NCBI RefSeq assembly: GCF_017875395.1
Contig: NZ_JAGGMO010000002.1
Span: forward strand, 1 to 64,000
Direction of reading: 5' to 3'
Length of the DNA stretch: 64,000 nucleotides
Origin: Methanococcus voltae
GTDB lineage: Archaea > AGJL01 > Methanococci > Methanococcales > Methanococcaceae
Shown: in pieces, positions 16,923 through 58,797 of the stretch
Layout of the letters: every line of letters begins with the position of its first letter
Numbering within the stretch: position 1 is the first letter of the stretch
Made by a program: the position numbers and the translations under genes
The notes under the pieces: model-generated
Told to the model about the DNA's origin: nothing
The model's database searches: none
Seen by the model: the letters and a program-made list of their open reading frames with translations, nothing else

Positions 16923-16973
16923 ACGTATTATTTGATAAAATATCCTCATGTGGGGGGCCAAGCCATGCCCCTA

Positions 16974-27768: not shown

Positions 27769-27786
27769 TTTATCACTATTTTGTTT

Positions 27787-28128
27787 TTAATTCTTCTTTT
27801 CTTTCCAAATTACATCAAAAGTACAATTGCATCGAGGGTGTGCAGGGAGTACTCGTTTAATATCGTCCATTGTATAATCATAGCCTTTGCTTGCTAAATC
27901 TTTACACTTTTGGCAAGTGGTTTTATCATAACGTGGCAAAACTCTTGCAATTGCTACCTTATCGATTTCATTTTCAAGTTGTTTATAATAATCTGCCTTT
28001 GCCCATAAATCTGCTCTTCTTAATTCAGTTCTAACAGTCATATCGGCTTGATTCTTTGAAATTTCCAAACATTCTTTTACTTTTTTAGCGGTGTTGGTCT
28101 TGTTCCCTTTGCCGTGGAACTCATCAAT
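27787..28128 (-). pseudogene. Head morphogenesis domain (SPP1 gp7 / Mu gpF type), separated from portal by frameshift
   Basis: From a TTG at 28068 the ORF encodes 93 aa with TVRTELRRADLWAKADYY, then CQKCKDLASKGYDY and LPAHPRCNC, the C-terminal signature of SPP1 gp7/Mu gpF minor head proteins. The frame is open further upstream (DEFHGKGNKTNTAKKVKECLE) to the portal stop at 28124-28126, where it overlaps in another frame. The portal ORF ends with helical gp7-like sequence, so the two halves look like one portal-gp7 fusion broken by a one-base indel near 28120-28130. It could also be a separately translated C-terminal fragment. Confidence 0.65.
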
Positions 28129-29869
28129 TAATATATTTTAATCGGTTCTTTTGGTCATCGCTTAATTTACCACACTGGTCAAAAGCATAGTTTTTAACAA
28201 ATTCAATTGCATTTTTATTTTCTTTAATCGGCAAGGCATTTGCTTTTAAGTGATTTTCAATGTTTTCAAATACTAATTTTTTAAAGTTTATTTTATTGAA
28301 TGACTTTTCTAAAATTTCTTTTAATTTTCCATATTCATTTATTGAAATAGTTTCAATGTTATTTGACGTTTTTAAGGTCTTTTCGTATACTTCTATTGTA
28401 GCTTTTTCTATTTCCGTATTAATTGAATTTAAAAGTTCATTGCCCCAGGGTGATAGTTCATCTACTTCATTTAATTCATTAGTTAATTTATTATTTAATT
28501 TATTTAATTGATTATTTTTAGCATACTGTTCACTTTTAGTATTTTTATTTTTATTTTCATTATTCGATTTATTAATTTCTTTTTCTTTTAATTCTAATTC
28601 CAAACCGTAAATATTTGCAAAATTTGAAATAGTTTCTTCACTTGCCCCAATTTCTTTAAGTTCTTTGATGCAATTAATAATTTTTTCGTGAGTTTCTGAA
28701 AGTTCCTTTTTTTCTTCACTATCATCGATTATAAAATGAAATTTAGAAATATTTTTATTGCCATTATTAATGTTATTATCCTTATTATTGCTATTTTCAA
28801 ACTCCAAATCGATTAATTTATTTATTAATTTTTCAATTCTTATTTTGTATTTTCTTAAAAACTCTTTTCTTTGCTTTCTTAAATCTGTTCTTTTATAGTC
28901 TGCACTTCCCGATTTTGTAAAGGCCTCATTGTAGTAAAAAGAACTACAAATGATTTCATCGCACTTATCGAGTATTGTTTTTAAATAACCCGTATCTATT
29001 TTAAACGGGATTGCTGTGGTTTTAACATAACCAGGTACTGCCATACCACCCTTAGTTTTTATGTTGCTGATTCCTTTCGCATAATTCTCAATTATATTTT
29101 TATATTCCTCTTTATTATCTTCTGTTGGCAAACCAACAGGTTCACCGTTCATAACTTCACCGACACTAACACAAACTGGTGGAGAAACTGCCCTTTCATC
29201 GATTAATTTTCCCAAGTTAAATAATAAATCGAATTTCTTTTCAATTGCATTGTAGCAATCTCCCATCATCAATGATTGAGCTTTAAAAACAATTATATTT
29301 TTAATATCTTGCCAATGAATTTCATAACCTGATTTTTCCTTAAGTTCCTTCATCTCTAAAATCTTATTTTTTTCATCTTCATCATTTGAATTTTCGCAAA
29401 AAACTATTAAATTATTTTTATAATCTTTTTGGAATTCGTGTATAATTATTTCTTCGTTATTGAATGGATTCTCAATTGTATATGTTGAAAATGGGTCCAA
29501 TCTGTGAAATTTATTTTTTATATTTAATTGATTAATTGTTTTATTAGTTTTATAAATTTGATAGTATCCCGTTCCATAAAGAAAGGCATCTTCGAGTAAT
29601 TTGGGAATTATCCCTTTATCCCTGCTATTGTAAAATAAATTTGATTCCTCAATCCATTCCTCAATCTTTTCTTTACTTTTGCATTCATCAATTGAATAAT
29701 TTCCCAAAAGGTCATTTATTAAAGCATTAAAACTTAAATTTGCGGTGGAATCACATTCTAAATATTTCCTATAATTTTTCTTATCGTCATTCATATTAAA
29801 AATTTGTAAATTATTATCTATCGTCGTTGATGTGCTGGCACCAACTTCACTACTTCCAAAATAATCCAA
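28124..29869 (-). CDS. Portal protein (with fused head-protein start)
   Basis: 581 aa. The portal forms the 12-fold vertex ring through which DNA is packaged. Typical pattern of SPP1/HK97-like portals: an N-terminal region with FHRLDPFSTYTIENPF, a central region with VSPPVCVSVGEVMNGEPVG, then CDEIICSSFYYNEAFTKSGSADYK (stem and crown transition), followed by a charged helical part. Asn/Lys-rich low-complexity stretches (NNKDNNINNGNKN, NKSNNENKNKN) are inserted. The last ~130 residues resemble the start of a gp7-type protein, continued in another frame by the next entry. It lies downstream of the terminase gene, as usual. Confidence 0.75.
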   Translation of the reverse strand: MDYFGSSEVGASTSTTIDNNLQIFNMNDDKKNYRKYLECDSTANLSFNALINDLLGNYSIDECKSKEKIEEWIEESNLFYNSRDKGIIPKLLEDAFLYGTGYYQIYKTNKTINQLNIKNKFHRLDPFSTYTIENPFNNEEIIIHEFQKDYKNNLIVFCENSNDEDEKNKILEMKELKEKSGYEIHWQDIKNIIVFKAQSLMMGDCYNAIEKKFDLLFNLGKLIDERAVSPPVCVSVGEVMNGEPVGLPTEDNKEEYKNIIENYAKGISNIKTKGGMAVPGYVKTTAIPFKIDTGYLKTILDKCDEIICSSFYYNEAFTKSGSADYKRTDLRKQRKEFLRKYKIRIEKLINKLIDLEFENSNNKDNNINNGNKNISKFHFIIDDSEEKKELSETHEKIINCIKELKEIGASEETISNFANIYGLELELKEKEINKSNNENKNKNTKSEQYAKNNQLNKLNNKLTNELNEVDELSPWGNELLNSINTEIEKATIEVYEKTLKTSNNIETISINEYGKLKEILEKSFNKINFKKLVFENIENHLKANALPIKENKNAIEFVKNYAFDQCGKLSDDQKNRLKYIN

Positions 29870-29973
29870 TATTATTTTTAATATTTTTACACCTGAAAAT
29901 TATTTAATTATTTATAATTTATTTCGTAATTGAGAAATATTTTATTATTAATTTTTAAATTATTATTAATTTA

Positions 29974-30705
29974 TTATGCCAAATAGCAATCAAATTTAAT
30001 TTTTGGTTTCCTTAAAATTTTATTCATTCCATAAACTGCAAGCCCTACACTCCAAAAGCTATCACCGTGTCCTTCAGCTGTTTCAATTGCTGTTAAATCA
30101 CTATTGACTTGCAAAAGTTGATTTATTTGTCTTTGATCGTTAATTAGTTCCATTTGTGGTAAATTTACAGCAGTTTCAAGCTGTGTGGCTATGCTTTTTC
30201 TATTTTTAGGCGTTAATATTACAGGTTGCCAATTACCTTCAAGCTCTCCTTTTTCTGCAAAACCATCAAGCTCGCCACGTGTAGCGTCGTAAAATATTGC
30301 ATCGGTGAAATCCATAATATAGTCATTTATCCAGGTTATTTGTTTATAATAATCTGTTTTATCGAACCATTTTGATAAGATTTGTTTATAACTTGTGCCG
30401 TTATCCGTTGAAAATACTGCTAAATGGGAGGGGTGTCTTTTCTTTCCAATATCAAAGCCTGCAACGATTGTACAATTATTATCAATATTATCAATATCAA
30501 TATTATTTTTAATATTTTTATTATTGATATTATTGATATTATTTTTATTTTCAAAATTATTTTTTAAATTATTATTAATTATTTTCAGAAGTGCTTCACG
30601 ACTGAAAAAACTGTCTGCAGAATGAACTGGAGTACACATTCTTTCTTTTGCAAATGATATCGGGTTTGTTCTTCGCTCACGGTCTAATTGTTCATAAGTG
30701 TACAT
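29974..30705 (-). pseudogene. Large terminase, C-terminal nuclease half (frame-shifted)
   Basis: The frame continues from NDKDKTVLWPEMYTYEQLDRER (open from about 30740) to the stop at 29974. It holds the RNase H-like terminase nuclease: VAGFDIGKKRHPSHLAVF (first catalytic Asp), IFYDATRGELDGF (second acidic residue), and EGHGDSFWSVGLAVYG (third Asp), all in the family order. A 30-residue Asn/Ile-rich insertion (NNINNKNIKNN) precedes the first motif. As an independent ORF it would start at ATG 30705, with no ribosome site seen. With the next entry it forms one broken gene. Confidence 0.8.
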
Positions 30706-31436
30706 TTCTGGCCAAAGTACTGTTTTATCTTTATCATTAAAATTGCAGGAAACTTATGCCAATTGACGTTTTCTTTAAAATCTTCGTCAAAGTCCCTAAG
30801 TTTAAAGAATAAATCCACATCGCTCTGGGGAGTTCCAACGAGATGCAAATAACCGTTTGGATTTGGCAAGTACTTCACATCTTCATAATAAATTTTTGTA
30901 ATTTTGTCAATAATCGTTGTATTTAATTCATTTGCAGGGTCTGAAAGAATATCGTCACAAATTACACCCGTGCCGTGCCACCCTCTTTTAAAAGACAGTA
31001 TTCCAGACGGTTCCATTCTAAAATTATTTTTCGAGTCCCAACTGTAATCGATGATAGTTTCCGCATCGGTCATATTTTTAATATTTTGAAAATATCTATT
31101 TTTTTCAATTAATTTTTTAATATTTTTTAAATGGTGTTTTGCCATAGTTTCAGAGTATGAAATATATTTCCAATCTTCTCCAAACTCCCTTGCTCGGAAA
31201 ATTCTCCACATTACGTATGCGTAAATATGGTAACTCTTTAAATGACCACGTGGTGCCATCATCGCAGTTTTTTTATTATTTTGCAGAATATTGCCCCAAT
31301 TGTAAATATGAGTCGGTTCTACAAAATCCCTATCAAAAGACTCTGGAAATATATATTTCATAAATTCATTTAACCGATATAATGACCTTATGACTTTTTC
31401 ACTCTCTTCGAAACCCTTTTTATTCACTTCGTTCAT
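30684..31436 (-). pseudogene. Large terminase, N-terminal ATPase half (frame-shifted)
   Basis: 250 aa from ATG 31436. It carries the packaging ATPase: Walker A variant MAPRGHLKS near residue 58-66, Walker B GVICDD near 158-163, and the coupling motif region LVGTPQSDVDLF. The normal protein continues NDKDKTVLWPE, but a one-base shift in AATTTTAATGAT (about 30735-30745) diverts this ORF to LMIKIKQYFG and an early stop. The two halves overlap by 22 bp. The gene starts only ~8 bp from the E4 repeat, so its promoter has been lost or replaced. Confidence 0.82.
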
Positions 31437-31560: not shown

Positions 31561-31677
31561 ACCAAACCCTTTTTACTCGTTTTACTCGTAAAAATCCTTT
31601 GATGGGAATTTAATAAGAAAATAAAAACATCAAATCTCCGATTTGACATGGAGCCGTCCGCCCTAAGGCAGTTGGGC
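31561..31677 (-). repeat. E element copy 5, adjoining array 2
   Basis: Same short E variant as copy 4, from CCAAACCC to GGGC at 31674-31677. On the minus strand it begins exactly after nt 36 (...GATTGAAA) of the leader-distal repeat of array 2, as E1, E2 and E6 do in the other arrays. Confidence 0.8.
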
Positions 31678-33438
31678 TTTCAATCCTTGTTTTAATGGAA
31701 TTGCCACTGCGACCAACCCATAATATAAAATTACCTTTTGCAGTAATATGTTTCAATCCTTGTTTTAATGGAATTGCCACTGCGACTTTAATTGTTGCAG
31801 TAATATAGCTTTTTTAATTGTAGAGGTTTCAATCCTTGTTTTAATGGAATTGCCACTGCGACACTGCAATTTTTAGGCTTTTTATTAATTTTTGATGCTG
31901 TTTCAATCCTTGTTTTAATGGAATTGCCACTGCGACACCTCCATTGGTAGATATTCATATTTCATAATATCTCCTGGTTTCAATCCTTGTTTTAATGGAA
32001 TTGCCACTGCGACTTTGGACATTTGGAAAAAGATTTAATTGACAATACGGAATACTAGTTTCAATCCTTGTTTTAATGGAATTGCCACTGCGACCAATGA
32101 TAATGAAATATCCAATTCCTGAGATTGGTTTCAATCCTTGTTTTAATGGAATTGCCACTGCGACCCTATAATCACTTTAGATTTGCTATGAATACAATTA
32201 TATACTAGTTTCAATCCTTGTTTTAATGGAATTGCCACTGCGACTTTTAATACAAACAATTAATAGAGTTAGAGAAAATAAGTTTCAATCCTTGTTTTAA
32301 TGGAATTGCCACTGCGACTTGAAAATTAAATTATCAATTATTTATTTTTTGGAGGGTTTCAATCCTTGTTTTAATGGAATTGCCACTGCGACATAGTAGT
32401 GGTTAGCAATTGAACTTGTTCGGTAGTTTGTTTCAATCCTTGTTTTAATGGAATTGCCACTGCGACTTGACTATAAGGGGCATTAATGCAGGAGGTGTGA
32501 GAGTTTCAATCCTTGTTTTAATGGAATTGCCACTGCGACCAATCAGCAAATAAGGGAACTAATAACACAATGGAGAGTTTCAATCCTTGTTTTAATGGAA
32601 TTGCCACTGCGACTCTCATCTAATCTATGATCCCATAATTTACAGTTTTTGTTTCAATCCTTGTTTTAATGGAATTGCCACTGCGACAGCAGGAGCGGAC
32701 ACATTCGCATAATTTGGAGGTTTTGTTTCAATCCTTGTTTTAATGGAATTGCCACTGCGACTAAGGAAATGATATCGGGGGCAATTGTTGGAGCGGGGGC
32801 GAGTTTCAATCCTTGTTTTAATGGAATTGCCACTGCGACATCCAGCAACAGCGGACAAATCAAGATTATATTATGCTGAGGACGGTTTCAATCCTTGTTT
32901 TAATGGAATTGCCACTGCGACTCAAACCACAAGCTATGCCCTTACGTGGAATTAATAGCGTTTCAATCCTTGTTTTAATGGAATTGCCACTGCGACAGCG
33001 GACAGGGCAAGATTCGAACTTGCGACCAATTGGTGTTTCAATCCTTGTTTTAATGGAATTGCCACTGCGACACTTAAATTAACTCTTAAATTTGTTGCAA
33101 ACTAATGTTTCAATCCTTGTTTTAATGGAATTGCCACTGCGACTATATCCAATTGTTAGATACTGACCGGCCTAACTTATGTTTCAATCCTTGTTTTAAT
33201 GGAATTGCCACTGCGACGGGTAGCATTAACATCTAATTGCCCCACCATCCCGTGTTTCAATCCTTGTTTTAATGGAATTGCCACTGCGACATGTCATCAT
33301 TGGAGAATATCCATACCCCACACCCATATGTTTCAATCCTTGTTTTAATGGAATTGCCACTGCGACAATACTAAAAGCATTGTTTGAATCATGTAATAGA
33401 CGTTTCAATCCTTGTTTTAATGGAATTGCCACTGCGAC
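31677..33438 (-). CRISPR. CRISPR array 2
   Basis: 24 copies of the same 37-nt repeat, on the minus strand (plus-strand form starts GTTTCAATCC). Plus-strand starts run from 31677, 31750, 31826 through 33330 and 33402. Spacers are 33-45 nt, mostly 36-38. The leader is on the right (33439 onward), next to cas4. The oldest repeat (31677-31713) has its terminal C replaced by G where E5 begins. One spacer (32997-33034) derives from a tRNA-like sequence. Confidence 0.98.
32997..33034. other. Spacer matching the 3' part of a tRNA gene
   Basis: Reverse complement shows GCAAG-TTCGAAT-CTTGC, a perfect T arm with the universal TTCGA, then a 7-nt acceptor strand CCTGTCC, discriminator G and two further bases. 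The protein translation contains DSNLRP, a classic false-translation signature of tRNA genes. It is not the tRNA-Ser fragment seen at 17334-17390. Confidence 0.75.
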
Positions 33439-42445: not shown

Positions 42446-43117
42446 ATGGACTTACAATACTTAATGATAAAATATATTGATTTACACTTAAAAATGAGGG
42501 ATGGGACGAAACTAAGAGGTTATTTCGCCAATAAATATAAAGATTTAGAAGTATTCCACAACCATGATAATAATAACAATAATGAAAATAAGAAATTTCA
42601 TTTTAGGTATCCCACGGTTCAGTTTAAAGTAATTGATGGTAATCCATTAATTGTAGCAATAAATGAAGGTGCAAACGCACTAAAAGATGTAGTACTTTAT
42701 GAAGATACTATAAAAATAGATGATAAAAATTATTCGGTTCAAAGGGCTGAATTATCATCCAAAAGTGTAAATTTCGGAATATCTAACGAAATACACACAT
42801 ATGAGTTTAAAACGCCATGGATGTCTTTAAATCAAAATAACTATCCTGATTATTTGGCTTTAGATGATATTGATAAAGAAGAAAAGCTTAAATCTGTATT
42901 AATTGGTAATATACTTTCGATGTCCAAAAGTATAGATTATAAAGTTGAAGAAAAGATTAAAGTAAGTGCCGATTTAAAGCCTATAGATTTAAACTTTAAA
43001 GATATAAAAATGAAAGGTTTTAAAGGAACTTTTAAAACTAACTTTGATATTCCTGACTACTTAGGACTTGGTAAATCCGTTTCAAGAGGCTTAGGAACTA
43101 TTATAAAAGTTAAATAA
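42446..43117 (+). CDS. cas6: CRISPR RNA endoribonuclease Cas6
   Basis: 223 aa. Cuts the repeat RNA to give the ATTGAAAC (AUUGAAAC) 5' handle. C-terminal signature FKGTFKTNFDIPDYLGLGKSVSRGLGTI is the Gly-rich loop of Cas6. His residues suitable for catalysis occur at FHNHD and KFHFRYPTVQF in the N-terminal third, where an Asn-rich insert (HDNNNNNENKK) also lies. Last gene of the I-B operon. As the only Cas6 in the window and with one repeat type in all arrays, it probably also supplies crRNA to the Cmr complex. Confidence 0.88.
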   Translation: MDLQYLMIKYIDLHLKMRDGTKLRGYFANKYKDLEVFHNHDNNNNNENKKFHFRYPTVQFKVIDGNPLIVAINEGANALKDVVLYEDTIKIDDKNYSVQRAELSSKSVNFGISNEIHTYEFKTPWMSLNQNNYPDYLALDDIDKEEKLKSVLIGNILSMSKSIDYKVEEKIKVSADLKPIDLNFKDIKMKGFKGTFKTNFDIPDYLGLGKSVSRGLGTIIKVK

Positions 43118-43190: not shown

Positions 43191-43595
43191 TTATTCAAAC
43201 AAATAAACCATTTCTACATCTTTAAATTCAATAGTAATAGTTTTTTGTCTAAATTCTTTTTTTATAAGCTCTGCAAAATAAATAACTGCTTTTTTATAGT
43301 TTTCTAAATTAACAAATTTTGGGTTTGCACTACCTATTATTGTAAATGTATCCTCACCACCTATAGGACAACCCCATTCGGTATTATAAATACATTTAGT
43401 GGATTGTAATACACCTGATGGATAAACGTCTGTCTCTTCCATAGTTTTTAGCAATAACTTTTGTAAAACTGTTCCTATTTCTTTTGAAGGATTATTTTTA
43501 ATTACGTTTTCATTTTCATGAAAATAACCTTCATTTATTCCAAAAGTTATTGCATATTGGATAGTTTTAAATGTTTCTTGTGTAATTTTAATCAC
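43191..43595 (-). CDS. Candidate SAM-AMP/SAM lyase-like protein of the cmr operon
   Basis: Up to 134 aa (131 if translation starts at the ATT 43586, which is spaced five bases after GGTGA; the GTG at 43595 lies in the ribosome site). Last gene after cmr6, 11 bp away. Small alpha/beta protein with CIYNTEWGCPIGGEDTFTII in the middle and FRQKTITIEF near the end. Tyr70 and Glu81 are 11 residues apart, as I recall for catalytic Tyr58/Glu69 of the phage SAM lyase Svi3-3, and Q117 sits in a similar strand. SAM-AMP lyases occur with CorA-type III-B loci. The identification rests on spacing, size and context, not on a search. Confidence 0.45.
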   Translation of the reverse strand: MIKITQETFKTIQYAITFGINEGYFHENENVIKNNPSKEIGTVLQKLLLKTMEETDVYPSGVLQSTKCIYNTEWGCPIGGEDTFTIIGSANPKFVNLENYKKAVIYFAELIKKEFRQKTITIEFKDVEMVYLFE

Positions 43596-43606: not shown

Positions 43607-44815
43607 TCATTCTAAATTTCCATAACCCACTTTTGTTTTTGCACCAATGCCTCTATTCAATAATATCTTGTTAAATAACTCTTTTTTATTTTCGGAAGAT
43701 ATTGTTATTGATTCATTTCCTTTTAGTTCTATTTCTGAATCGTTTAATAAAAAATTAAATTTAATTTTATTATTTGAGCCTATTTTTAAGAATTTTAATG
43801 GTATCGGTTCTTTAAAAACTTCTTTGTGTGGCGTTATATAATCCTCTTCAAATAATTTGTTATTATCATTATTACTATTATCTTCAGAATATATTTCAGC
43901 ATCTAAAAATATATCTCGATTATATATTGGCACATGTTCCGTATCTGAATTTATGCCTTCAAATATGGAATCCCTTAATTTAATAGTAAATTCTACTTTT
44001 TCATTATTATTTAATTTTTTTATTTTCAGTAATTCTTTTGATTTATTGTCAAGAATTTCATACAATAATTCCAAAAGATATTTATATTTATTATTATCTT
44101 GCTTTGGTATAAGTTCGCTGTTCTTCGATATGGGTTTACCTTTAAAATCCTTCAAACTGATTCTTGGAAATGCACTCCTTAATGTACCTTTTACAGAAGC
44201 GCCTGGGACTATTGGTAAACCTGTGGTATAATCAAAGAAAAAACCCAATTTATACTCTCCTTCAGTAATACTCGTTTCGTGCATATATCCTGAACCGATA
44301 AGTAAACCAGGATATAATATGTCCAATTTAATTTCTTTAAACTTTCTATTTTTCAATTTTTTAATATCTTTTTCATTGGTTAAATTATTAGTAGATTTGT
44401 TATTTTTATAGCTATTATTCATATCATCTGTGATAGTAAGTTTTTTAATGTTTTCTTGTCTAAGATTGGCGTCTGAATACCTCTTTAATGTAGCTACTAC
44501 TTTTTTAATAGACTTATTTTTAGTATCAAGTTCTTTTTTGTATTCACTACCCCTAATAAAATTAAGTAATTTTTCATAATATTCCCTATAATATAAATAT
44601 CCTAAATTTCCATTTGACACATTATCAACTTTTTCAGCTTTTACTATTTTTTTATCGACATCCTTTTTTGAATTTGATTTTTGAGAATTTTTAAAATTAT
44701 TTGTTCTATCTTTAACATTATTTTTATTATTATTTTTATTATTAGCAGTTTTGCCCTTTTGACAAACAATTGAATTTAATTCTGCGAATGAATTTACCTT
44801 GATTCCTCTAACCAT
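43607..44815 (-). CDS. cmr6: Cmr complex subunit Cmr6
   Basis: 402 aa. A RAMP subunit near the 3' end of the crRNA. Core RAMP signature LLIGSGYMHETSITEGEYKLGFFFDYTTG, then LPIVPGASVKGTLRSAF, and the Gly-rich end RGIGAKTKVGYGNLE, which is the terminal Cmr6 motif. The first ~130 residues are an Asn/Lys-rich, helical extension not common in the family. Start ATG 44815 behind GGGTGAAGT. Lies between cmr5 and the lyase-like gene. Confidence 0.9.
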   Translation of the reverse strand: MVRGIKVNSFAELNSIVCQKGKTANNKNNNKNNVKDRTNNFKNSQKSNSKKDVDKKIVKAEKVDNVSNGNLGYLYYREYYEKLLNFIRGSEYKKELDTKNKSIKKVVATLKRYSDANLRQENIKKLTITDDMNNSYKNNKSTNNLTNEKDIKKLKNRKFKEIKLDILYPGLLIGSGYMHETSITEGEYKLGFFFDYTTGLPIVPGASVKGTLRSAFPRISLKDFKGKPISKNSELIPKQDNNKYKYLLELLYEILDNKSKELLKIKKLNNNEKVEFTIKLRDSIFEGINSDTEHVPIYNRDIFLDAEIYSEDNSNNDNNKLFEEDYITPHKEVFKEPIPLKFLKIGSNNKIKFNFLLNDSEIELKGNESITISSENKKELFNKILLNRGIGAKTKVGYGNLE

Positions 44816-44829: not shown

Positions 44830-45228
44830 TTATTTCTCTCCAATTTTAAATGTCCTTAAAGCTAATTTTAAAGCAATTATTGCATCCATTATTTCTTCTT
44901 TTGCTTCTTTTTCATTATTACAGGCGTATTCTAATAAATCTTTATTATACTCATCTTCTTTTTTTCCGATGACCTCTAAAATTAAATCATTTACTATTTT
45001 TTTCTCATCTTTACCTTGATAAAACACGACTGCAGGTATTAAACCGCTTTGTATGATTGCAGGACCATAAGATGCTAAATATCCGTTTACTTCCTTTCTA
45101 ATTACTTTTAGGGTATTGTCATTATCCCCTTTTATTTCAACCCATAACCCTTTGTCTCCAACTTTATTGCATTTTTTGATAATATTTAAAGCTTCAGGAA
45201 TATAACTTTCAACTTGTTTTTTACTCAT
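44830..45228 (-). CDS. cmr5: Cmr complex small subunit Cmr5
   Basis: 132 aa, alpha-helical. Forms the inner minor filament along Cmr4. SYIPEALNIIKKC, then YLASYGPAIIQSGLIPAVVFY is the familiar Cmr5 pattern, and a helical C-terminus with ALKLALRTF follows. ATG overlaps the cmr4 stop by 8 bp. Normal length for the family. Confidence 0.9.
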   Translation of the reverse strand: MSKKQVESYIPEALNIIKKCNKVGDKGLWVEIKGDNDNTLKVIRKEVNGYLASYGPAIIQSGLIPAVVFYQGKDEKKIVNDLILEVIGKKEDEYNKDLLEYACNNEKEAKEEIMDAIIALKLALRTFKIGEK

Positions 45229-46078
45229 TATTTCCCTCTTTGCTTTTTATAATGCCAATATCGCAGAATCCATAACCTATTGTGGCATTCCCGCCGATTT
45301 GAACTAATTTTTCTTTAATGGCCTCATTAAATGTATTACTTAAACCATCTTCTTCACAGTTTGTCATAAAGTAAAATATTGATTTCCTCGGTACCACTTC
45401 TTCATACCATAAATTTTTACTTTCTCCGTTTTCAAGTTGATTTCTTGCGATTACAGGTAAATTTAAGTTACTAAATTCTTCGTTACTACATATTATTATT
45501 TTTTCATCATTTAAATTTAAGTAGTTACATAAATTGGTAATCTCTTCACTTTTAAATAAATTGGTAATATCTTCATATTTTGATATTTCTTCAAATTTTT
45601 CATTTTCTTTTGGTTCAAAATTACATTTATTTTCTAACTTTTTTTCTTTTAATTGTTTTAAACCTTCTTTTTCATCTTCTTTAATCCCTGAAATCTCTAA
45701 ATACTCAAAAAAATCACTTAAAGCTTGTGGACAAGTAACTAACGCATAAGGTCGTTTATTGCTCCTAACCGGTCTAAATAATATTTTAGCATCAAAAAAT
45801 GCCATTTTGCCTTTACCATTTTGAGTATTGTCTTGAGAAGGTGAGTTACTATCTTTACCAAATATTTTAGGTACATTATTCTTATCGCTTTCATTATCTT
45901 TAGCATTACATTCAAAGAACGCTCTTAAAGCTCCTTTTAAACTCGAAGAGTTTATTATTGGATAATTAGTAACACAATCCCTTTGAACCATATTATCAAC
46001 TACGCCATATGTAACGTCGCCACTACCTACGTGAAGATTTGTAACTGCTTTTATAAAATAAACATTTTTTGAACTCAT
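45221..46078 (-). CDS. cmr4: Cmr complex backbone nuclease Cmr4
   Basis: 285 aa. Backbone RAMP that cuts target RNA at 6-nt steps. N-terminal FIKAVTNLHVGSGDVTYGVVDNMVQRD, with Asp28 in VVDNMVQRD in the position of the catalytic Asp of characterised Cmr4 proteins, then PIINSSSLKGALRAFFE and, towards the end, QIGGNATIGYGFC. RNase activity is therefore expected to be retained. Start overlaps the cmr3 stop (ATGA). Confidence 0.93.
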   Translation of the reverse strand: MSSKNVYFIKAVTNLHVGSGDVTYGVVDNMVQRDCVTNYPIINSSSLKGALRAFFECNAKDNESDKNNVPKIFGKDSNSPSQDNTQNGKGKMAFFDAKILFRPVRSNKRPYALVTCPQALSDFFEYLEISGIKEDEKEGLKQLKEKKLENKCNFEPKENEKFEEISKYEDITNLFKSEEITNLCNYLNLNDEKIIICSNEEFSNLNLPVIARNQLENGESKNLWYEEVVPRKSIFYFMTNCEEDGLSNTFNEAIKEKLVQIGGNATIGYGFCDIGIIKSKEGNNE

Positions 46079-47280
46079 TTTTTATCCCCCTCTACCATAT
46101 ATTGATTGTATCCAATTTTTTTAAGAATTTCATATTTTTCATCATTTAGTATTTTTACAATTTCTAATTTTTTATTTTCTTTAAAATGAATGACACTTCC
46201 TTTTGTTAAGAATTTATACTGATTATCAAGTTTATCTTTATGATTAAAATTCTCTAAATCAATTGTAGCGAAATTCTTTAATTCTGCATGTATTAATAAC
46301 GAATTTTTTCTAATTTCATTATAGTCATTATTTGTAAGATACATATCTGACATTAAAGTTATTGTATTCTCTTCAAATTTTAAATTGCCAAATAATTTAA
46401 TTTCAGAATTAATTTTCTGAATGTCTAATTTAAATGATGAGTTTTCTGCACCCATATTTACAATATTTGTATATTTTTCAGCTAGTTTTTCCAAATCTTT
46501 ATTATCTTTAAGCGATAATACAAAGAAAAAGCCCCATTCTTCGTCTAATTTAAATCCATTTTTATCTTTACGTTTTAATTTATAACTTGTTTGTTTGTAG
46601 AATCCATCTTCATTATCAGTGTTATTTTTAGAAATATTAATTCCGATATTTGTATTTTCAATAAATATATCTTTATATTTTACGAAATTTTTAGATTCAT
46701 TGATATTTTTTGTTTCCACAGTGAATTTTTCATTATTTTCGCTAAATTCCAAAAATTGAAATAATATATCCGTTTTATAATCTTTAGGGTTATAGATAGT
46801 GTGATATGTATCAATTTTTTCTTTTTCTTCTTTCTGTAAATAATGTCTCTCTTCAAATTTTAAAGGCAATGCAGTTTTATTTGAGTTTTTTTGATAATTA
46901 AAAGGTATTTGCGTATAAATTTCTAATTTATTTTTATTTTCTTCATCTTTTTTATATAATAAAACCGGCGATATTGAGTTAATATGGCCAATATCTGTGT
47001 TATTGGATTCTTTTAAATCACTTAAATCTAATTTAAAATTCCCAATTGTATCAGCTATTTTTATATTTTCCTCATGATACTTGTTAAAATTAGACCTATA
47101 TTTTCCAGTGATTTTTAACAATTCTTTCCTTATCATTCCTAAAACGGTAGTTTGTTGTGGGAACTTTTCCGAATTTACAAGGTAATTTTTTAAAGAATCT
47201 TCTTTACCCTCTCCAAAAGTTTCTTTTCCCCCAAAGAAATAACTGTCAATCGGTTTTAATGTAACGAGATAGTCGGTCAT
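46075..47280 (-). CDS. cmr3: Cmr complex subunit Cmr3
   Basis: 401 aa. Cas5-group RAMP that holds the 5' handle and contacts Cas10. N-terminal YLVTLKPIDSYFFGGKETFGEGKE and PQQTTVLGMIRKELL are standard Cmr3 motifs. The central region is Asn/Lys-rich, as in neighbouring proteins. ATG directly follows the cas10 stop with GGGGGGTGA upstream. Confidence 0.9.
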   Translation of the reverse strand: MTDYLVTLKPIDSYFFGGKETFGEGKEDSLKNYLVNSEKFPQQTTVLGMIRKELLKITGKYRSNFNKYHEENIKIADTIGNFKLDLSDLKESNNTDIGHINSISPVLLYKKDEENKNKLEIYTQIPFNYQKNSNKTALPLKFEERHYLQKEEKEKIDTYHTIYNPKDYKTDILFQFLEFSENNEKFTVETKNINESKNFVKYKDIFIENTNIGINISKNNTDNEDGFYKQTSYKLKRKDKNGFKLDEEWGFFFVLSLKDNKDLEKLAEKYTNIVNMGAENSSFKLDIQKINSEIKLFGNLKFEENTITLMSDMYLTNNDYNEIRKNSLLIHAELKNFATIDLENFNHKDKLDNQYKFLTKGSVIHFKENKKLEIVKILNDEKYEILKKIGYNQYMVEGDKK

Positions 47281-49038
47281 TTATTCACCCCCCTCATTTA
47301 AGAAGCTTAATAATCTTAGGATTCTTTCAAAAGTCTGAATTGCAGTATTATTATTCGTATTATCATCTTTTGAATTATCGTAAGGATACTCGTAGTAGCA
47401 AGCTTTTAATAAATTTTTAATATTATCGATTTGTTGTTCATTTGCTTTATGAATATCTTTTTTAAAGTTATTTTTAAAGTAATTGTCAATAGAGGTGTTA
47501 AATTCTTCAAAGTCTTTATTTCCATTATTTATATGTAAATCATATAAAGAATTTAAAAGAACTTCATCTTCAGCAATTTTTATTTTAAAGGATTGTAATA
47601 TTTTTCCATTTTCATTAATTTCGTTATTATTTTTTAGAATTATGTCATTCATTAGCTTGGCAAATAAATCATACAAACTTTTATTATTTTTATTCAGAGT
47701 AATTTGAATTTCCTGCCCGCTATGTTTCAAAATTCTTAAAGCAATTGCATTTTTTTCATATTCCTTTTTATCAGCTTCTGAAGTAAGTAGCTCTTTATTT
47801 TTTTTAGCAACATAATTTAGTAAATCATTTGATTTGTTCAAAGCTTCATATAATGGGTATTTGTAATAATTAATAGTTAGTCCATACGATAATGAAGGCT
47901 TTATTTCTTTTCCATCTATTTTTATAGTTTTTCCAATTTCTTTATTAAATTTTTCATCAATATTTTCTATAAGTCCAAATACAGTTTTGAACTTATCTTT
48001 TTCATTTTCAGTTTCATTTTCGTGAATTAAAGGTACAAATGCTAAAATATCGTCGCCACCAATATATATTGGTAAACCGCCATATTCTTTAATAATATTA
48101 ACTACTTCTTTTGAAAAATTAAACAATTGTTTTGAAAATATATTATATTTCTCCAAGTTGTTATTTTCAGCGTTATCATCAGTTTCTCTTAAGAAATTTT
48201 TTAATATTTTACCGACAGAATCTCCATCTGCTCGTATAATGGCGTAATATTTATAGTGCTTTTTGAAATTTTCTTTATTTTCTGCACATTTTTTATAAAT
48301 TTCATTATATTTTCCATTATTTACTGAGTCATTAAGGTTATCAATTTTAATATCATTTGATTCAATAAAATTACCTAAAGCAATTTCTGGAAGTGATTTT
48401 ATCATTTCTTTATCGGCACTTGTTTCAAAACAATCTATCGATAAAAAACTATTTTTTATAGTTTTATTTTCAAAAAATTTAAACAATGGATTTTTGATAT
48501 TACAGGGATTGTGACTTTGATAATTTGGTTCTAATTCTAAACTATCTAAATAGTTTGATATTGTATTCATTGCTTCTTTTTTAGAGCTAAATTCTCCAAT
48601 AAACCCGTAAATTTGGAAATAATCTATTAAATTTTCTTTAAACTCTTTTAGTTTAGATATATCATATGTTTCGCTTTCTTTATCATCTAATGGCTTTATG
48701 TAGGTCTCATCTATAATTTTAGTAGCTAAATCATTTAGCACTTCTTTTTTAATTTTTTCAAAATATGATAATATCTTTTCTTTATCAAAATCATTAGAAA
48801 CTTTTACAATACATCTATCGGGGAATAATCCTGCACCGTATTTTTCAGTTTCGAATTCATTTTCAACATAGGGAGTCAATATTTCAAAGTTATTCTCTTT
48901 TAGCTTTAGTATCATCTGTTTCATAATGTATGAAAATATATAACTTCCACCCCAGGCGTGACCTGTCTTTTTAGCAGAAGCTATTGTCTGTACAATCGGA
49001 CCGATTGTAAATCCTAAATAATTGTTAGTTTCTGTCAT
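47281..49038 (-). CDS. cmr2: Cas10 (Cmr2), HD-less, with active cyclase motif
   Basis: 585 aa, much shorter than the usual ~850. It begins TETNNYLGFTIGPIVQTIASAKKTGHAWGGSYIFS, the stretch that normally follows the HD nuclease domain, so the DNase domain is absent. The first Palm has AIIRADGDSVGK (Asp271) and the second Palm has IYIGGDDILAF with GGDD at 327-330, so nucleotide-second-messenger synthesis should be possible. A Cas10 of this build, next to CorA, is the arrangement known for SAM-AMP (rather than cyclic oligoadenylate) production in Bacteroides fragilis. GGGGTGA precedes the ATG and its start overlaps the cmr1 stop. Confidence 0.93.
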   Translation of the reverse strand: MTETNNYLGFTIGPIVQTIASAKKTGHAWGGSYIFSYIMKQMILKLKENNFEILTPYVENEFETEKYGAGLFPDRCIVKVSNDFDKEKILSYFEKIKKEVLNDLATKIIDETYIKPLDDKESETYDISKLKEFKENLIDYFQIYGFIGEFSSKKEAMNTISNYLDSLELEPNYQSHNPCNIKNPLFKFFENKTIKNSFLSIDCFETSADKEMIKSLPEIALGNFIESNDIKIDNLNDSVNNGKYNEIYKKCAENKENFKKHYKYYAIIRADGDSVGKILKNFLRETDDNAENNNLEKYNIFSKQLFNFSKEVVNIIKEYGGLPIYIGGDDILAFVPLIHENETENEKDKFKTVFGLIENIDEKFNKEIGKTIKIDGKEIKPSLSYGLTINYYKYPLYEALNKSNDLLNYVAKKNKELLTSEADKKEYEKNAIALRILKHSGQEIQITLNKNNKSLYDLFAKLMNDIILKNNNEINENGKILQSFKIKIAEDEVLLNSLYDLHINNGNKDFEEFNTSIDNYFKNNFKKDIHKANEQQIDNIKNLLKACYYEYPYDNSKDDNTNNNTAIQTFERILRLLSFLNEGGE

Positions 49039-50554
49039 TATTCACCCCTATTGGCGTATAACCTAATTTTGGCATATTTTTATCTAAAAAATCTTTAATA
49101 TCAAAATCTGATGGAACATTTAGAATTTTCGAAGTATCTATTCGTACGTTTTTTGATTTATTTTCTGGATAGTATTGAATTTTGCCCCTTCGATTTCTTA
49201 CGTAATTGTTATTATGCTTTTTAGCCATTCTTTTTATAATTTGAATACTTAATTCAGTTTCTAAATTTTCGATAGATATTTTGTTTATATCATCCTCTTT
49301 AATGTCATAATCGCAGCTTTCTTTCGCAATTATATATATTGAATACTTATCTTTTTCCCTTATTATTTTATATGTAAGAGGGGATTTATAACGTGTTATA
49401 TCGCTATTTTTTGTAGGTTTTAGTAATGCTTTAAGGATATACTGAAAATTTTCTTCAGTATTATTTACTATAAAGTTATAGGTATCTCCATAACCCAACA
49501 ATGCTCTAACATTTTTGTACTTAAAATTAGGGTTAGTAGATTGATTAGTTGTGTCAGTCTCTTTTTTTAATATGTTGTATAAGTTATTTGCATTATCATA
49601 ATATAGTTCAAAGTCTTTGAAAAATTCTTTTAGTAGTTCCTGGTCTTCTCTCTTAGGTATATTTTGCAATAGTTTTTCTAAAGTTCCTTCTTTTTTTAGA
49701 TAATTCTTTATAAATCGCTTTTCCCAGTATGTTTTTTTAGTAGAATCATTAAAATGTTTCATAATTAATGAATTTTGATATTGGTTTGTTAAATTTCTTT
49801 GTCTAATGTAGTAGTTAGAATTGTCTTGTTTTGTTAATCCTGATTTTAAGTTTTTATAACCGTAAGCGATAATTTCAAAAGCTTTTTTTAAATCACTTTC
49901 TTCTGAATTTTCATAAACTGCAACTATTTTAGACCTATTATTTTCATTTAATTCAAATTTTTTTTCTTTTTCAAGTAATTTTTTATATAATTCTTTAAAA
50001 TTATTTTCAGTGTCCTTGTCATTAATTCTTTCAACAGTGAATGAACCAAAACCTTTATTTTGTCTTGTTCCAAAATTTGTTATTGCGAAAAAACTTTCAA
50101 TATTTTCTTTAATTTTCGTTAATAATTCAGTATTGAAGCTAAATATTTTTAATTCGACTTTCCCATACATTTTAAACTTATATTTGTTTTTATCCTTGGT
50201 ATTTCCAAAGAATAATTTATTAAATGGGTTACTATTAATATCAAAATTATCATTTTCTCCCGAAACTTTTATCGTAACCCGATAATCAAAGGCATTATCT
50301 TTAATTTTCTCTAAATACTCTTTTTTTTCGTTATCGTTATTACTTTCTCCTTTTTCCTTATCATATCCCATTAAAAATGTTTTATAATCTTCAACCCCCT
50401 TGTCAAAAGCATGTTTTTTTAAGAATTTATCCAACTTAGGTTTTAGTTCCGTTCCCCTAAGAGTTGCCCCACTTTGCCCGTGTTGGAAATGAATCATAGG
50501 TGTATGCTGCTTTAATGTAATAGTTAACTCGTTCGACGTCATAAATTTACCCAT
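49025..50554 (-). CDS. cmr1: Cmr1-position RAMP protein
   Basis: 509 aa from the ATG at 50554 (MGKFMTSNELTITLK), which is seven bases after GGTGG. The track-length form with TTG 50569 would begin before the ribosome site. RAMP fold: KQHTPMIHFQHGQSGATLRGTELKPKLDKFL at the start is a divergent version of the Cmr1 TPLxxG...LRxxxLKG pattern, and ITNFGTRQNKGFGSFTVE (~165-182) is the Gly-rich RAMP loop. First gene of the cmr set in the same place as cmr1, binding the crRNA 3' region. Less similar to standard Cmr1 than the other subunits are to their families. Confidence 0.75.
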   Translation of the reverse strand: MGKFMTSNELTITLKQHTPMIHFQHGQSGATLRGTELKPKLDKFLKKHAFDKGVEDYKTFLMGYDKEKGESNNDNEKKEYLEKIKDNAFDYRVTIKVSGENDNFDINSNPFNKLFFGNTKDKNKYKFKMYGKVELKIFSFNTELLTKIKENIESFFAITNFGTRQNKGFGSFTVERINDKDTENNFKELYKKLLEKEKKFELNENNRSKIVAVYENSEESDLKKAFEIIAYGYKNLKSGLTKQDNSNYYIRQRNLTNQYQNSLIMKHFNDSTKKTYWEKRFIKNYLKKEGTLEKLLQNIPKREDQELLKEFFKDFELYYDNANNLYNILKKETDTTNQSTNPNFKYKNVRALLGYGDTYNFIVNNTEENFQYILKALLKPTKNSDITRYKSPLTYKIIREKDKYSIYIIAKESCDYDIKEDDINKISIENLETELSIQIIKRMAKKHNNNYVRNRRGKIQYYPENKSKNVRIDTSKILNVPSDFDIKDFLDKNMPKLGYTPIGVNNDRN

Positions 50555-50739
50555 TGCGTAACCACCCAATTAGCATTTAATTATTTAATACTTATTAATT
50601 AGTTTAGAAAATATATAAAAATACCTATTTAATCCCGAAAAAATTGATAATATTTAAAATAAATAATTGATAAATATAAGGATAATTTAAAAATAGAACA
50701 TTAAAATTAGAAATTGAAAGTAAATGAGTATGTTAATTT

Positions 50740-52851
50740 TTAATTTTCATTAAATAATTTTCGAATTTTTTTACAGATACTTTTTTTATTAACGTTTTTG
50801 AAAGTTGACTTTAATGAGTTTATGATTGATTTTATACTTGGTATATTAAAAAGTACGAGGGAAATTATCAAAATTAATATAATATATATTATTTCCACAA
50901 TTAAATATAATATGGGGTTATCACCGACATATAATTCTACATAATTTAAAAAGTTAAAATATATCCCAGTAATTCCTGTTATTATTAATATCCCAATTGA
51001 AAGTACCGTATATTTTTTTAATTTTTTAAGTGATATTTGGCAATAGTGGTGGATAAACCATAGTATACTTAATATCACCAATGGCAAAATTATGAAATTA
51101 AATATCCACGTTAGGAATTCTGTATTATATAGCATCGTAAAGAAAATATTTGTGTAATCCATATTAAATAGTGCATTTGAGGCGCCTGAAGTAGTCGTAT
51201 CCGATACGGCACTGCCTGTAAACATTGTTAAATTCATTCCAAAGAAACCCGTAAAGAATGAAGGTATAACAAATAACGCCCCCAATATAGCTAAAAGGTT
51301 TATCTTTTCAGATGTTTTATTGGACTCTATCAGCGTAACATATTGATGTAATTCATTTAATTCATTATCCAAATCCTTAAGATTTTGCTTTATATTCATA
51401 CTATCCTGCATAATGTCATACATTTCAATGCCTTGCTCTTGTGCAGATACTTCATTAAAATACATGCAATTTATAAAGTTTATATATTGTCCATATAAAG
51501 AACGAACATTATTCATATAATTGCTGAGTCCTTTACCTTCCAATCCTTTTCCATTTATGTTATTTTTTGAATTTTGAGAAATATCCTCTGAAAATTTCAA
51601 TATCGAAGCTCTTTGGGCTAAACAAAGTTGAACCATTTCAAAATACATGGTTTTAAAGTGGTCTACTAAAAATTTATTATCGTTACAATATTCTGTTGTT
51701 AACAATGCGAAAGAATACCTTGTAATTCCATATAACGTACCGTAGTTAGACCATCGGTTATATGTGTGTTTTTTATTTAGCTCTGTAAGTAATTTTTCGT
51801 TTTGACAAGTGCAAGATTCACCCGAATCTATAAACATAAACCTATGCCAATATTCGTCACTTTCATAATTATAATCGGTATGTGTATTATATTCGTGATT
51901 ATAGTTATTATTAAAGTTATTATTATAATTCAATAAGTTTTTATTTTCTGAGTTTTTAGCATTTTTGGAATTTCCCAAATATCTTATTTTATCATTATTT
52001 CCATACCAACACATGGCAAACATACGGTCATCGATAATTGGTTCAATACAAATTGTTTCAGGATTACAGTTTCCGATAAGCTTAAAACTACTACTCAATA
52101 TATCCATAATTGGTTGGGCTAATTTTATAGGATTTTTTTGAATATTATTATTCTTATTATTTGATTCGATTATATCCTTGCACTCTTCAAAATTTTCATA
52201 AGATGATGGTTTAATTACCCAATTAGTTAAACTTATACTATCTGCTAAAAATTTATTTTTAGGAGTTTTAATACCATCTTCACCCAAAAATTGAGGATAT
52301 ATTCTCCTACCGTAGTCATTAATATTAATAATGTCTTCTTTATCTTTATATTCGTTATTTGTTAAATGAATCGACAGTATTCCAACGCCTGTATTGTATA
52401 TATTTAAATAAATTTTGTCGATATCTAATTTATAGCAGTTATTTAAAGTTTTTATCTTATAATGTACTTTATTTTCTTTTTTAAAATTGGGATTTTTATA
52501 TCGTATTACAGGATATTCTTTTTCAAAATATTTTTCCAATAATTTTTCTTCATTTTTATCATTATTTCCATTTTCTTCGCTTAAATCTTCGACACCTTTT
52601 CCAAAAATTGCTTTTCTAACATTATTATAAAAATAAACAAATTCGTTATATTTTAAAGGTTCATCAACTTTATAATCATCAAATTCCCAATTACTATCGT
52701 TTTTTAATATTTTTGTTAATTTATGAATATCTAATTTTTTATCGTAATCTCCATAACTTTTCCCATTTTTATCCGTTAAATTCCATTTAAATGGCAACAT
52801 AAAAATATGTTTACTTTTAGGTTTTAGGTTATGTTTTCCATCAGTATTCAT
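50740..52851 (-). CDS. CorA-like membrane effector of the type III-B locus
   Basis: 703 aa. A large soluble N-terminal part (~1-500) is followed by long helices (FNELHQY region) and four hydrophobic segments at about 518-537, 578-601, 614-634 and 645-667. The first ends in FFGMNL, the GMN pore motif of CorA-family channels. Two extra C-terminal spans go beyond the normal two. A CorA homologue next to an HD-less Cas10 is the known effector of SAM-AMP signalling, in which ligand binding is thought to open the membrane channel. The ATG follows GGAGTGA, and the gene lies 186 bp upstream of cmr1, on the same strand. GMNL replaces the strict GMN-(E) context of Mg transporters. Confidence 0.85.
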   Translation of the reverse strand: MNTDGKHNLKPKSKHIFMLPFKWNLTDKNGKSYGDYDKKLDIHKLTKILKNDSNWEFDDYKVDEPLKYNEFVYFYNNVRKAIFGKGVEDLSEENGNNDKNEEKLLEKYFEKEYPVIRYKNPNFKKENKVHYKIKTLNNCYKLDIDKIYLNIYNTGVGILSIHLTNNEYKDKEDIININDYGRRIYPQFLGEDGIKTPKNKFLADSISLTNWVIKPSSYENFEECKDIIESNNKNNNIQKNPIKLAQPIMDILSSSFKLIGNCNPETICIEPIIDDRMFAMCWYGNNDKIRYLGNSKNAKNSENKNLLNYNNNFNNNYNHEYNTHTDYNYESDEYWHRFMFIDSGESCTCQNEKLLTELNKKHTYNRWSNYGTLYGITRYSFALLTTEYCNDNKFLVDHFKTMYFEMVQLCLAQRASILKFSEDISQNSKNNINGKGLEGKGLSNYMNNVRSLYGQYINFINCMYFNEVSAQEQGIEMYDIMQDSMNIKQNLKDLDNELNELHQYVTLIESNKTSEKINLLAILGALFVIPSFFTGFFGMNLTMFTGSAVSDTTTSGASNALFNMDYTNIFFTMLYNTEFLTWIFNFIILPLVILSILWFIHHYCQISLKKLKKYTVLSIGILIITGITGIYFNFLNYVELYVGDNPILYLIVEIIYIILILIISLVLFNIPSIKSIINSLKSTFKNVNKKSICKKIRKLFNEN

Positions 52852-53391: not shown

Positions 53392-54977
53392 GTCGCAGTG
53401 GCAATTCCATTAAAACAAGGATTGAAACAAAAAACAGTTCAAAATATATATAATAATAAATAAGGTCGCAGTGGCAATTCCATTAAAACAAGGATTGAAA
53501 CAAGATGCTGATGTTAATATATTATTATTACTATCTACGTCGCAGTGGCAATTCCATTAAAACAAGGATTGAAACATGCAGAATTGTAATTTTTGCAGTG
53601 CTGGAAATATACTTTTGTCGCAGTGGCAATTCCATTAAAACAAGGATTGAAACTACCAATATGTTATTGTATATTGACTTATATCTTGTAATGTCGCAGT
53701 GGCAATTCCATTAAAACAAGGATTGAAACAAGAAACATCGCCTGACGAACGTAGGGCACTTACTGGTCGCAGTGGCAATTCCATTAAAACAAGGATTGAA
53801 ACTTCCATACTGAACATGAAGCTTCATCTATTTGCATCGTCGCAGTGGCAATTCCATTAAAACAAGGATTGAAACCTGCTGGTTTTGTGCAATTTGGAGT
53901 TGATTCTAAGTCTTCGTCGCAGTGGCAATTCCATTAAAACAAGGATTGAAACTTAACCTTGCTTTTGCTTTGCTCTTTGATAGCTATTTGTCGCAGTGGC
54001 AATTCCATTAAAACAAGGATTGAAACCGATTTCTTTCGGAAATTCAACAATAATTTTATTATGTCGCAGTGGCAATTCCATTAAAACAAGGATTGAAACT
54101 TAAATCTGGGGCTGGTTGCGGTGCTGGTGGTTTTGCACGTCGCAGTGGCAATTCCATTAAAACAAGGATTGAAACAAACGTACAATACGGTATTTATGGA
54201 CATGTCATGTCGCAGTGGCAATTCCATTAAAACAAGGATTGAAACTATATTATATGCGTATCACCATTAGATAATAACTCATCAGTCGCAGTGGCAATTC
54301 CATTAAAACAAGGATTGAAACTCTAGTCCTTTAAGCCAATTTACCCCTTGTATTACAGAGTCGCAGTGGCAATTCCATTAAAACAAGGATTGAAACCGGT
54401 CTAATGAAACTGATGTTGCAGTAGAAACAGTCGCAGTGGCAATTCCATTAAAACAAGGATTGAAACTCCCTTTTGACTAATTAGTCATCCGACATTATTG
54501 TGTCGCAGTGGCAATTCCATTAAAACAAGGATTGAAACGTATTGTTCACTATAGTACTTACAAATCTGAGAAGTCGCAGTGGCAATTCCATTAAAACAAG
54601 GATTGAAACCCATATTTTTGCCATAATTTTCCTTGCATTGTAAAGTCTGAGTCGCAGTGGCAATTCCATTAAAACAAGGATTGAAACATATAGAAAGATT
54701 AGTTACCAAAGTAACTGAAAACTATGTCGCAGTGGCAATTCCATTAAAACAAGGATTGAAAGCCCAACTGCCTCTGGGCGATTGGCATTTACTCAAATCG
54801 AAGATTTGATATTTTTATTTCTTATTAAATTCCCATCAAAGGATTTTTACGAGTAAAACGAGTAAAAAGGGTTTGGGATATTCCATTAAAACAAGGATTG
54901 AAAGTCATGAATATAATTATTAATTTTTTCAATTTCATTTGTCACAGTGGCAATTCCATTAAAACAAGGATTGAAAC
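53392..54977 (+). CRISPR. CRISPR array 3
   Basis: Same 37-nt repeat as arrays 1 and 2. Nineteen repeats start at 53392, 53465, 53539, 53617 and so on to 54651 and 54726. The last of these is followed by E6, then by a 3'-partial repeat (54880-54903), a 37-nt spacer and a variant terminal repeat (54941-54977, GTCACAGTGG). Leader on the left. Spacers 33-41 nt. Confidence 0.98.
54762..54878 (+). repeat. E element copy 6, inside array 3
   Basis: A shorter E variant (~117 bp) starting GCCCAACTGCCTCTGGG. It keeps the TCAAATC...GATTTGA hairpin and the TTTTTACGAG...GTAAAAAGGGTTTGG end. As with E1, the left CRISPR repeat ends at nt 36 and a partial repeat restarting near nt 13-14 follows on the right, so ~23 nt are duplicated. 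Confidence 0.8.
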
Positions 54978-55345
54978 TGGGAAATATGACCCATAGTTCC
55001 ATAGATGATAACGGATATCAATTAAAATCACCGTAAAAACTTGGAAAATAGCTATTTTTAGTAATAATTTATTTAACGGTTGAATTCCTTATTTTTTGAA
55101 ATAAACGTCAATTCGTGCTTATTTTTTTAGACCTTATTTGATGATATAGAGAATAATTTAAACTTATTTTGTATGAAATAATCATTTATTGTTGATATTC
55201 ATTTTATGCTTCTTTTGAGTTGTGCGTGCTTTTTTTGAGATTTAAACCGAAAGTTTTAGATATTAGTCCTGCGCATATTATATTGTACAGTACACTATAC
55301 GGTACATTAATATCAAACATAATAAAATAATGTGGGGTTGAGTAA
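54978..55345. other. Gene-free interval after array 3 with an operator-like palindrome
   Basis: About 370 bp without an ORF. It contains a TGTAC-A-GTACA palindrome (55284-55294) and a nearby GGTACATTAATA, likely a regulatory site for the following small genes. Otherwise nothing recognisable. Confidence 0.5.
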
Positions 55346-57404: not shown

Positions 57405-58157
57405 GTGGAAAGTAATAATACATATGGATATGACGTGGAAAAAAGCGCACAAAATATGGATAATATATTAAGTAATATTGACTATGATTTTCAACAATGC
57501 AATGAAATACCAAAAGAGTCTGATTTAACGTATAATAATGGATTTTACGTCGATGTTGGTTCAATATTTGTAGATATCAGAGGTTCTTCAAAATTAACTG
57601 AATCACATAAGTGCCCTACTCTTTCTAAACTATATCGTGCATATATTTCAGAAGTAGTTTCTTTAATGAATAGCTATAAAAGTTGTAAACAAATTAACAT
57701 TGTAGGAGACTGTGTTTCAGGAATTTTTAAAGGTACTAGTCCAAAAAATACTTGTGAAGATATATTCCACTTATCCGGACAAATAAACTCTTTAATAAAT
57801 ATATTCAATTACAAATTATTTAAAAAAAATATTTGTGAGATTAAAGTTGGAATTGGTTTAGATTATGGTTCTACTTTAATGATAAAGGCAGGCCGTAAAG
57901 GGACTGGAGTAAACGATATAGTTTGGATGGGCGACGTAGTAAATATATCTTCTAAATTATGTGACAATGCATATAAAGAAGATAAACCTCGAGTATTAAT
58001 GACAAAAAAAGTTTATGAAACCCTACCTTGGAACGAGTGGCCAAGCTGTGGAAAACCACACTTGTATAAAATTAAAAGTTTAGAAAATAAAGAAATTTAT
58101 GGAAGAGATTATTTTAATACCTGGATGAACGAGTATTTAGAAAATATTAAAGAATAG
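57405..58157 (+). CDS. Class III nucleotide cyclase, Pycsar-like (cyclase A)
   Basis: 250 aa from GTG 57405 (GGTGA 4 nt upstream). Single soluble cyclase domain: first metal Asp in FVDIRGSSKL (Asp57), second in IVGDCVSGIF (Asp102), and transition-state Asn in DVVNISSKL (Asn180) with Lys184 where most adenylate cyclases have Arg. It converges with the membrane protein gene at 58162 and stops 4 bp from it. Standing beside a PycTM-like protein, it is likely to make a signalling cyclic mononucleotide (cUMP or cCMP) on infection. The nucleotide cannot be read from sequence alone. Confidence 0.75.
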   Translation: MESNNTYGYDVEKSAQNMDNILSNIDYDFQQCNEIPKESDLTYNNGFYVDVGSIFVDIRGSSKLTESHKCPTLSKLYRAYISEVVSLMNSYKSCKQINIVGDCVSGIFKGTSPKNTCEDIFHLSGQINSLINIFNYKLFKKNICEIKVGIGLDYGSTLMIKAGRKGTGVNDIVWMGDVVNISSKLCDNAYKEDKPRVLMTKKVYETLPWNEWPSCGKPHLYKIKSLENKEIYGRDYFNTWMNEYLENIKE

Positions 58158-58719: not shown

Positions 58720-58797
58720 AATTAACCTCAATATCTTATAAAATTATATGTTACCTGATTAATACGATAAATTATATTAAATACAAAGATTTAAGAT

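Follow-up and report, generated by a model that had tools for sequence, protein, structure and literature searches.

The cmr operon and its terminal gene

The stretch of DNA analysed here (the window) comprises positions 1 to 64,000 of contig NZ_JAGGMO010000002.1 of the archaeon Methanococcus voltae (GCF_017875395.1), and the gene under study, a predicted lyase of the signal molecule S-adenosylmethionine-adenosine monophosphate (SAM-AMP), lies at the end of a CRISPR type III-B (cmr) operon within it. The initial annotation had placed a small last gene of the cmr operon at 43191..43595, and a genuine open reading frame (ORF) of 134 codons is indeed present there on the minus strand, assigned by phmmer, PADLOC, AlphaFold2 with Foldseek, and residue comparison. 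It begins with GTG, and an earlier start is impossible because an in-frame TAG abuts this codon on its 5′ side. Only 11 bp separate it from the stop codon of cmr6 on the same strand, a spacing from which co-transcription with cmr6 is inferred.

The operon reads, on the minus strand, corA, cmr1, cas10, cmr3, cmr4, cmr5, cmr6, and lyase. Its first gene encodes a CRISPR-type CorA membrane effector of 703 residues (50740..52851; PADLOC CorA, E=1.1e-158; Pfam CorA; sequence motifs) and is followed by cmr1 (49025..50569; PADLOC Cmr1, E=4.1e-67), cas10/cmr2 (47281..49038; TIGR02577, E=1.8e-37; PDB 9LQ5, E=7.2e-45; alignment), cmr3 (46075..47280; PADLOC Cmr3, E=2.5e-24; TIGR01888, E=1.5e-17, under the curated cut-off), cmr4 (45221..46078; TIGR02580, E=2.4e-54), cmr5 (44830..45228; PADLOC Cmr5, E=8.2e-25), and cmr6 (43607..44815; NCBIfam TIGR01898, E=5.4e-25). 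Adjacent genes overlap or are separated by 14 bp or less, except for 170 bp between corA and cmr1. When the window genes were compared with their orthologues in genome G020, the lyase gene was among the more constrained of the operon, with a ratio of nonsynonymous to synonymous substitution rates (dN/dS) of about 0.12, and thus appears to be under purifying selection.

The lyase gene is convergent, tail to tail, with cas6 (42446..43117, plus strand; PADLOC Cas6, E=1.2e-88), the final gene of an adjoining type I-B-like operon composed of cas8, cas7, cas5, cas3, and cas6, with cas1, cas2, and cas4 divergent (all except cas6 named by inspection). The region is flanked by two CRISPR arrays, neither assigned a strand, at 31677..33438 (about 24 copies of the repeat GTTTCAATCCTTGTTTTAATGGAATTGCCACTGCGAC) and 53392..54980 (about 20 copies in the opposite orientation). 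This 37-nt repeat is common to both arrays, and Cas6 is probably the CRISPR RNA (crRNA) processing enzyme of both systems.

Homology, predicted fold, and pocket residues

A phmmer search against the PDB matched residues 9-131 of the protein to the SAM-AMP lyase of Clostridium botulinum (9GAD, E=4.6e-25), with further matches to 9LQD (deposited as "SAM lyase", 6.2e-25) and to the mutant 9GAB (1.2e-24). Identity to the crystallised C. botulinum enzyme is about 38% over the full length, and the phmmer alignment contains two gaps, one of three residues and one of a single residue. Pfam and NCBIfam returned zero matches, and the only PHROGs match was at chance level, while the PADLOC family Mvol_0529-fam, called after Mvol_0529 of M. 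voltae, was matched at E=2.5e-53. A PDB profile search with alignment A2 was excluded from the evidence because that alignment contains the C. botulinum sequence.

The AlphaFold2 model, built from an alignment of 12 homologues drawn from the loci, has a mean predicted local distance difference test score (pLDDT) of 87.6 and a predicted template modelling (pTM) score of 0.82. Its β-α-β-β-α-β order (strands 5-19, 62-68, 81-89, and 121-133; helices 36-55 and 97-114) is that of a PII-like ferredoxin fold. The comparison of a predicted structure with SAM lyases, suggested in the initial annotation, returned 9GAD/9GAB first in Foldseek (E 7.8e-14, template modelling (TM) score 0.83), followed by the phage SAM lyases 6ZM9/6ZNB (E ~1e-4, TM 0.56-0.60), with PII-like proteins lower. 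A model computed from the single sequence, without alignment, reached a pLDDT of 74 and gave the same leading matches, so the fold result is independent of the alignment.

The same evidence bears on the PADLOC description line "DNA binding C-ter.", after which the protein might be taken for a DNA-binding protein or regulator. The predicted fold is ferredoxin-like/PII with an enzyme as its top match, Pfam shows no DNA-binding family, and the label, from a library dated 2023, takes no account of the 2023 and 2025 lyase papers; such a function has almost no probability. The SAM-AMP lyase family falls under model PDLC01067 ("Mvol_0529-fam, DNA binding C-ter."), whose description looks wrong and whose label is due for replacement.

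With regard to the pocket, PMC12255297 lists Y48, S50, W64, C66, E71, N81, F84, Q108, T110, T112, and Y122 around methylthioadenosine-AMP (MTA-AMP) in the C. botulinum enzyme and describes E71 and Q108 as important for catalysis. Once the offset of 7 in the PDB chain numbering of the phmmer alignment is considered, the window equivalents are Y58, S60, W74, C76, E81, N91, F94, Q117, T119, T121, and Y131, identical at 11 of 11 positions. Thus, the catalytic Glu and the B-loop Gln correspond to E81 and Q117, and the AMP-contacting W64, F84, T110, and Y122 to W74, F94, T119, and Y131. The predicted pocket also takes in the T-loop tyrosine Y70, giving 12 positions, and we equate this residue with Tyr58 of the phage SAM lyase Svi3-3 since both sit 11 positions before the Glu.

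The initial annotation had started from this spacing, and Tyr70 and Glu81 do lie 11 residues apart in CIYNTEWGCPIGGEDTF. The Svi3-3 residues it had named are accurate as well: Tyr58, Glu69, and Glu105 are given in PMC7877911, and Q104 in PMC12255297. The Gln said to lie in a strand near the end is present as Gln117, in the B-loop just ahead of the final strand; the Q104/E105 pair is retained in its Gln, while Glu105 is replaced by Lys118. On its own, the Tyr-11-Glu spacing is a weak argument, but it is more than chance because of the full-length homology, the invariance of Y70, E81, and Q117 in the 12 homologues, and the dN/dS of about 0.12. The match had been called modest; it proved stronger, with the C. 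botulinum SAM-AMP lyase and not Svi3-3 as the direct relative.

A general SAM lyase of the Svi3-3 or T3 SAMase type, which would drain free SAM and not SAM-AMP, shares the fold (the TM scores of 6ZM9/6ZNB noted above) and the catalytic Glu and Gln. However, SAM-AMP lyases are the nearest relatives by both sequence and structure, the AMP-half residues W74, F94, T119, and Y131, structurally lacking in Svi3-3, are all present, and the gene is encoded alongside the SAM-AMP effector CorA. The phage SAM lyases gave no match in the phmmer PDB search and ranked far below 9GAD in Foldseek, at about 15% identity. A function of this kind is very unlikely. A catalytically inactive PII-like protein, which would bind SAM-AMP as a sensor or sponge and so buffer CorA, is more improbable still: the PII-like fold is often a ligand sensor and the C. 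botulinum enzyme binds its own product MTA-AMP, but E81 and Q117 are intact, mutation of their counterparts cripples the relative, and the E71Q mutant fails to support immunity.

Pathway partners and homologues

The other components expected of a SAM-AMP pathway are encoded in the same operon. The window Cas10 matches the Bacteroides fragilis-type Cas10 of 9LQ5-9LQ8 (E=7.2e-45), and its D74 and E168 align with D70 and E151, which lie in these structures at the positions given for B. fragilis Cas10 in PMC10600005 and are tied to SAM-AMP synthesis in that paper. The palm GGDD motif is found at 327-330 (D329-D330), and no HD nuclease match was seen for this protein in NCBIfam, PADLOC, and Pfam scans. 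The window CorA carries YGRR and DDRMF motifs, both detected in 8/8 CorA proteins compared, which probably correspond to R152-R153 and D219-D220 in the CorA of B. fragilis. Among 36 Methanococci genomes, seven of them in the genus of the window, the lyase and CRISPR CorA (counted at >500 bits) are confined to the same three, a co-occurrence with a chance of 1 in 7140 if the two were independent, a figure that ignores shared descent.

The 12 pocket positions were then compared in 12 homologues, nine from cmr loci with CorA and three without nearby cas genes. All 12 positions are kept in 9/9 of the former. The latter are clostridial orphans, L022:9500-9880 (genome G038), L034:9413-9790 (G563), and L035:9253-9636 (G586); all three retain Y48, S50, Y60, C66, E71, Q108, and T112 (C. 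botulinum numbering) and are changed at F84 and T110, two of them also at W64 and N81 and one at Y122. A genome-wide search found CRISPR-type CorA absent throughout G563 and G586. These patterns suggest that the AMP-half contact residues track the CRISPR setting and that the window gene groups with the CRISPR side, although three orphans are few and drift may account for some of the difference. The orphan of L022 begins 1 bp past a 5′-3′ exonuclease gene.

In six clostridial loci, the lyase gene lies directly beside corA within the cmr operon. A scan of genome contigs with narrow peptide patterns gave matches in three clostridia only. Both the lyase tree and the Cas10 tree set the archaeal sequences apart from the clostridia, and therefore the lyase gene seems to have travelled together with its CRISPR system. 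Searches of IMG/VR, the INPHARED phages, and PLSDB yielded no relative of the lyase (phage matches at E ~9); the idea that this subfamily came from viruses or acts as an anti-CRISPR is therefore unsupported by these searches. In Clostridium senegalense, corA is split into two ORFs of 96 and 475 residues (L015:10417-12137) beside an intact lyase gene, and the CorA effector of this locus may be broken.

Because the sequence, the modelled fold, the pocket residues, and the genomic setting all point the same way, the gene most probably encodes a SAM-AMP lyase, the dedicated signal degrader of a CorA-linked type III-B system (probability about 0.94), as the initial annotation had guessed. Some observations count against this identification: the protein and the assayed C. 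botulinum enzyme share no more than about 38% of their residues, the loop of residues 21-35 is poorly modelled by AlphaFold2, and the gene stands at the operon end far from corA, unlike the clostridial arrangement.

The lyase has been described as a replacement for the phosphodiesterase NrN (PMC10600005, PMC12255297), and M. vannielii is named as an NrN species in the literature. A query search found no NrN homologue in the window genome; DEDD enzymes were not searched for. In locus L012 of genome G018 (G018:C1:108000-127500), an intact lyase gene (7691-8050, plus strand) lies 5′ of cmr1-cas10-cmr3-6, and corA (14252-16159, minus strand) is found at the opposite end of the locus, adjoined by a DHH gene for an NrN-type phosphodiesterase (16184-16936, minus strand; PADLOC DHH_CorA, E=3.4e-133). 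The DHH protein retains its DHH motif and the lyase all pocket residues; by gene content, G018 appears to be an exception to the published pattern in which one enzyme replaces the other. It is conceivable, though rather doubtful, that the SAM-AMP degraders of Methanococcus are not simple substitutes, such that the lyase and NrN of G018 differ in job (e.g., CorA gating versus system reset), while the non-CRISPR orphans, with their AMP contacts lost, use a different SAM-type substrate.

Several other features of the window were noticed. Two proteins with Guanylate_cyc domains (class III nucleotide cyclase) are encoded past the second CRISPR array (57405-58157, plus strand; 58798-59784, minus strand). 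The gene for a small membrane protein (58162-58731) separates them, and the group could form another nucleotide-signal defence set. Tail-like and terminase-like phage genes occur in two blocks (8225-16574 and 25298-31436), which contain near-duplicate proteins of 277 residues (11513-12346 and 25298-26131) and flank a type III restriction-modification-like pair (17718-22753). Named by inspection only, these blocks are probably a provirus or its remnants.

Proposed role and comparison with known systems

Briefly, the Cmr/crRNA complex would bind invader RNA, Cas10, in which the equivalents of D70, E151, and GGDD are kept, would join ATP and SAM into SAM-AMP, and pentameric CorA would bind SAM-AMP, whereupon the membrane would be disturbed. 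The lyase, presumably a PII-like trimer with an inter-subunit pocket as in its relatives, would grip the AMP adenine of SAM-AMP via W74 and F94, the bridging phosphate via T119 and Y131, and the MTA adenine via S60 and T121. E81 with Q117 would place the methionine end, whose carboxylate would attack to yield homoserine lactone and MTA-AMP. We infer that the window lyase is active and works by this scheme in M. voltae, the reaction chemistry, the trimer, and the need for degradation all being known from relatives only.

In reconstituted Escherichia coli, CorA immunity was reported to depend on either NrN or the lyase and to fail when SAM-AMP is not degraded (PMC10600005, PMC12255297), and the lyase mutation E71Q was reported to abolish it. 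The proposal that the lyase is the off-switch of the pathway is for this reason too simple. By analogy, the enzyme would be better called a required turnover partner of CorA. A complete archaeal SAM-AMP pathway of synthase, effector, and lyase is thereby supported, and no assayed archaeal SAM-AMP lyase was found in the accessible literature. Methanococcus, in which related species have the lyase alone or the lyase with NrN, is a group for asking why immunity needs SAM-AMP degradation.

Judged by its sequence, the protein would be a new archaeal member, if a modestly new one, of a family already biochemically studied in C. botulinum (9GAD, 9GAB; 9LQD-9LQH, deposited as "SAM lyase"; PMC12255297, PMC10600005). 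It shares full-length homology, the predicted fold, every reported pocket residue, and the partners CorA, Cmr1-6, Cas10, and Cas6 with that enzyme, but is archaeal, extends further at the N-terminus (by about 7 residues) and in the loop past strand 1, and is encoded at the 3′ end of its operon, whereas the C. botulinum gene lies beside corA. Svi3-3 and T3 SAMase (6ZM9, 6ZNB; PMC7877911), whose substrate is free SAM, have in common with it the PII-like fold, the T-loop catalytic Glu, the B-loop Gln, and the Tyr-11-Glu spacing; Svi3-3 differs in its low identity (about 15%), its lack of AMP-binding residues, and Glu105 at the position of Lys118. In CorA-linked type III-B systems, the phosphodiesterases NrN (DHH) and DEDD share the role of degrading SAM-AMP in a CorA operon, yet their fold and chemistry are unrelated to those of the lyase, the products of NrN being SAM and AMP. 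Finally, AcrIIIB4, described in PMC12255297 as a phage SAM-AMP lyase, shares the activity and the PII-like domain but is phage-borne and has an additional N-terminal domain.
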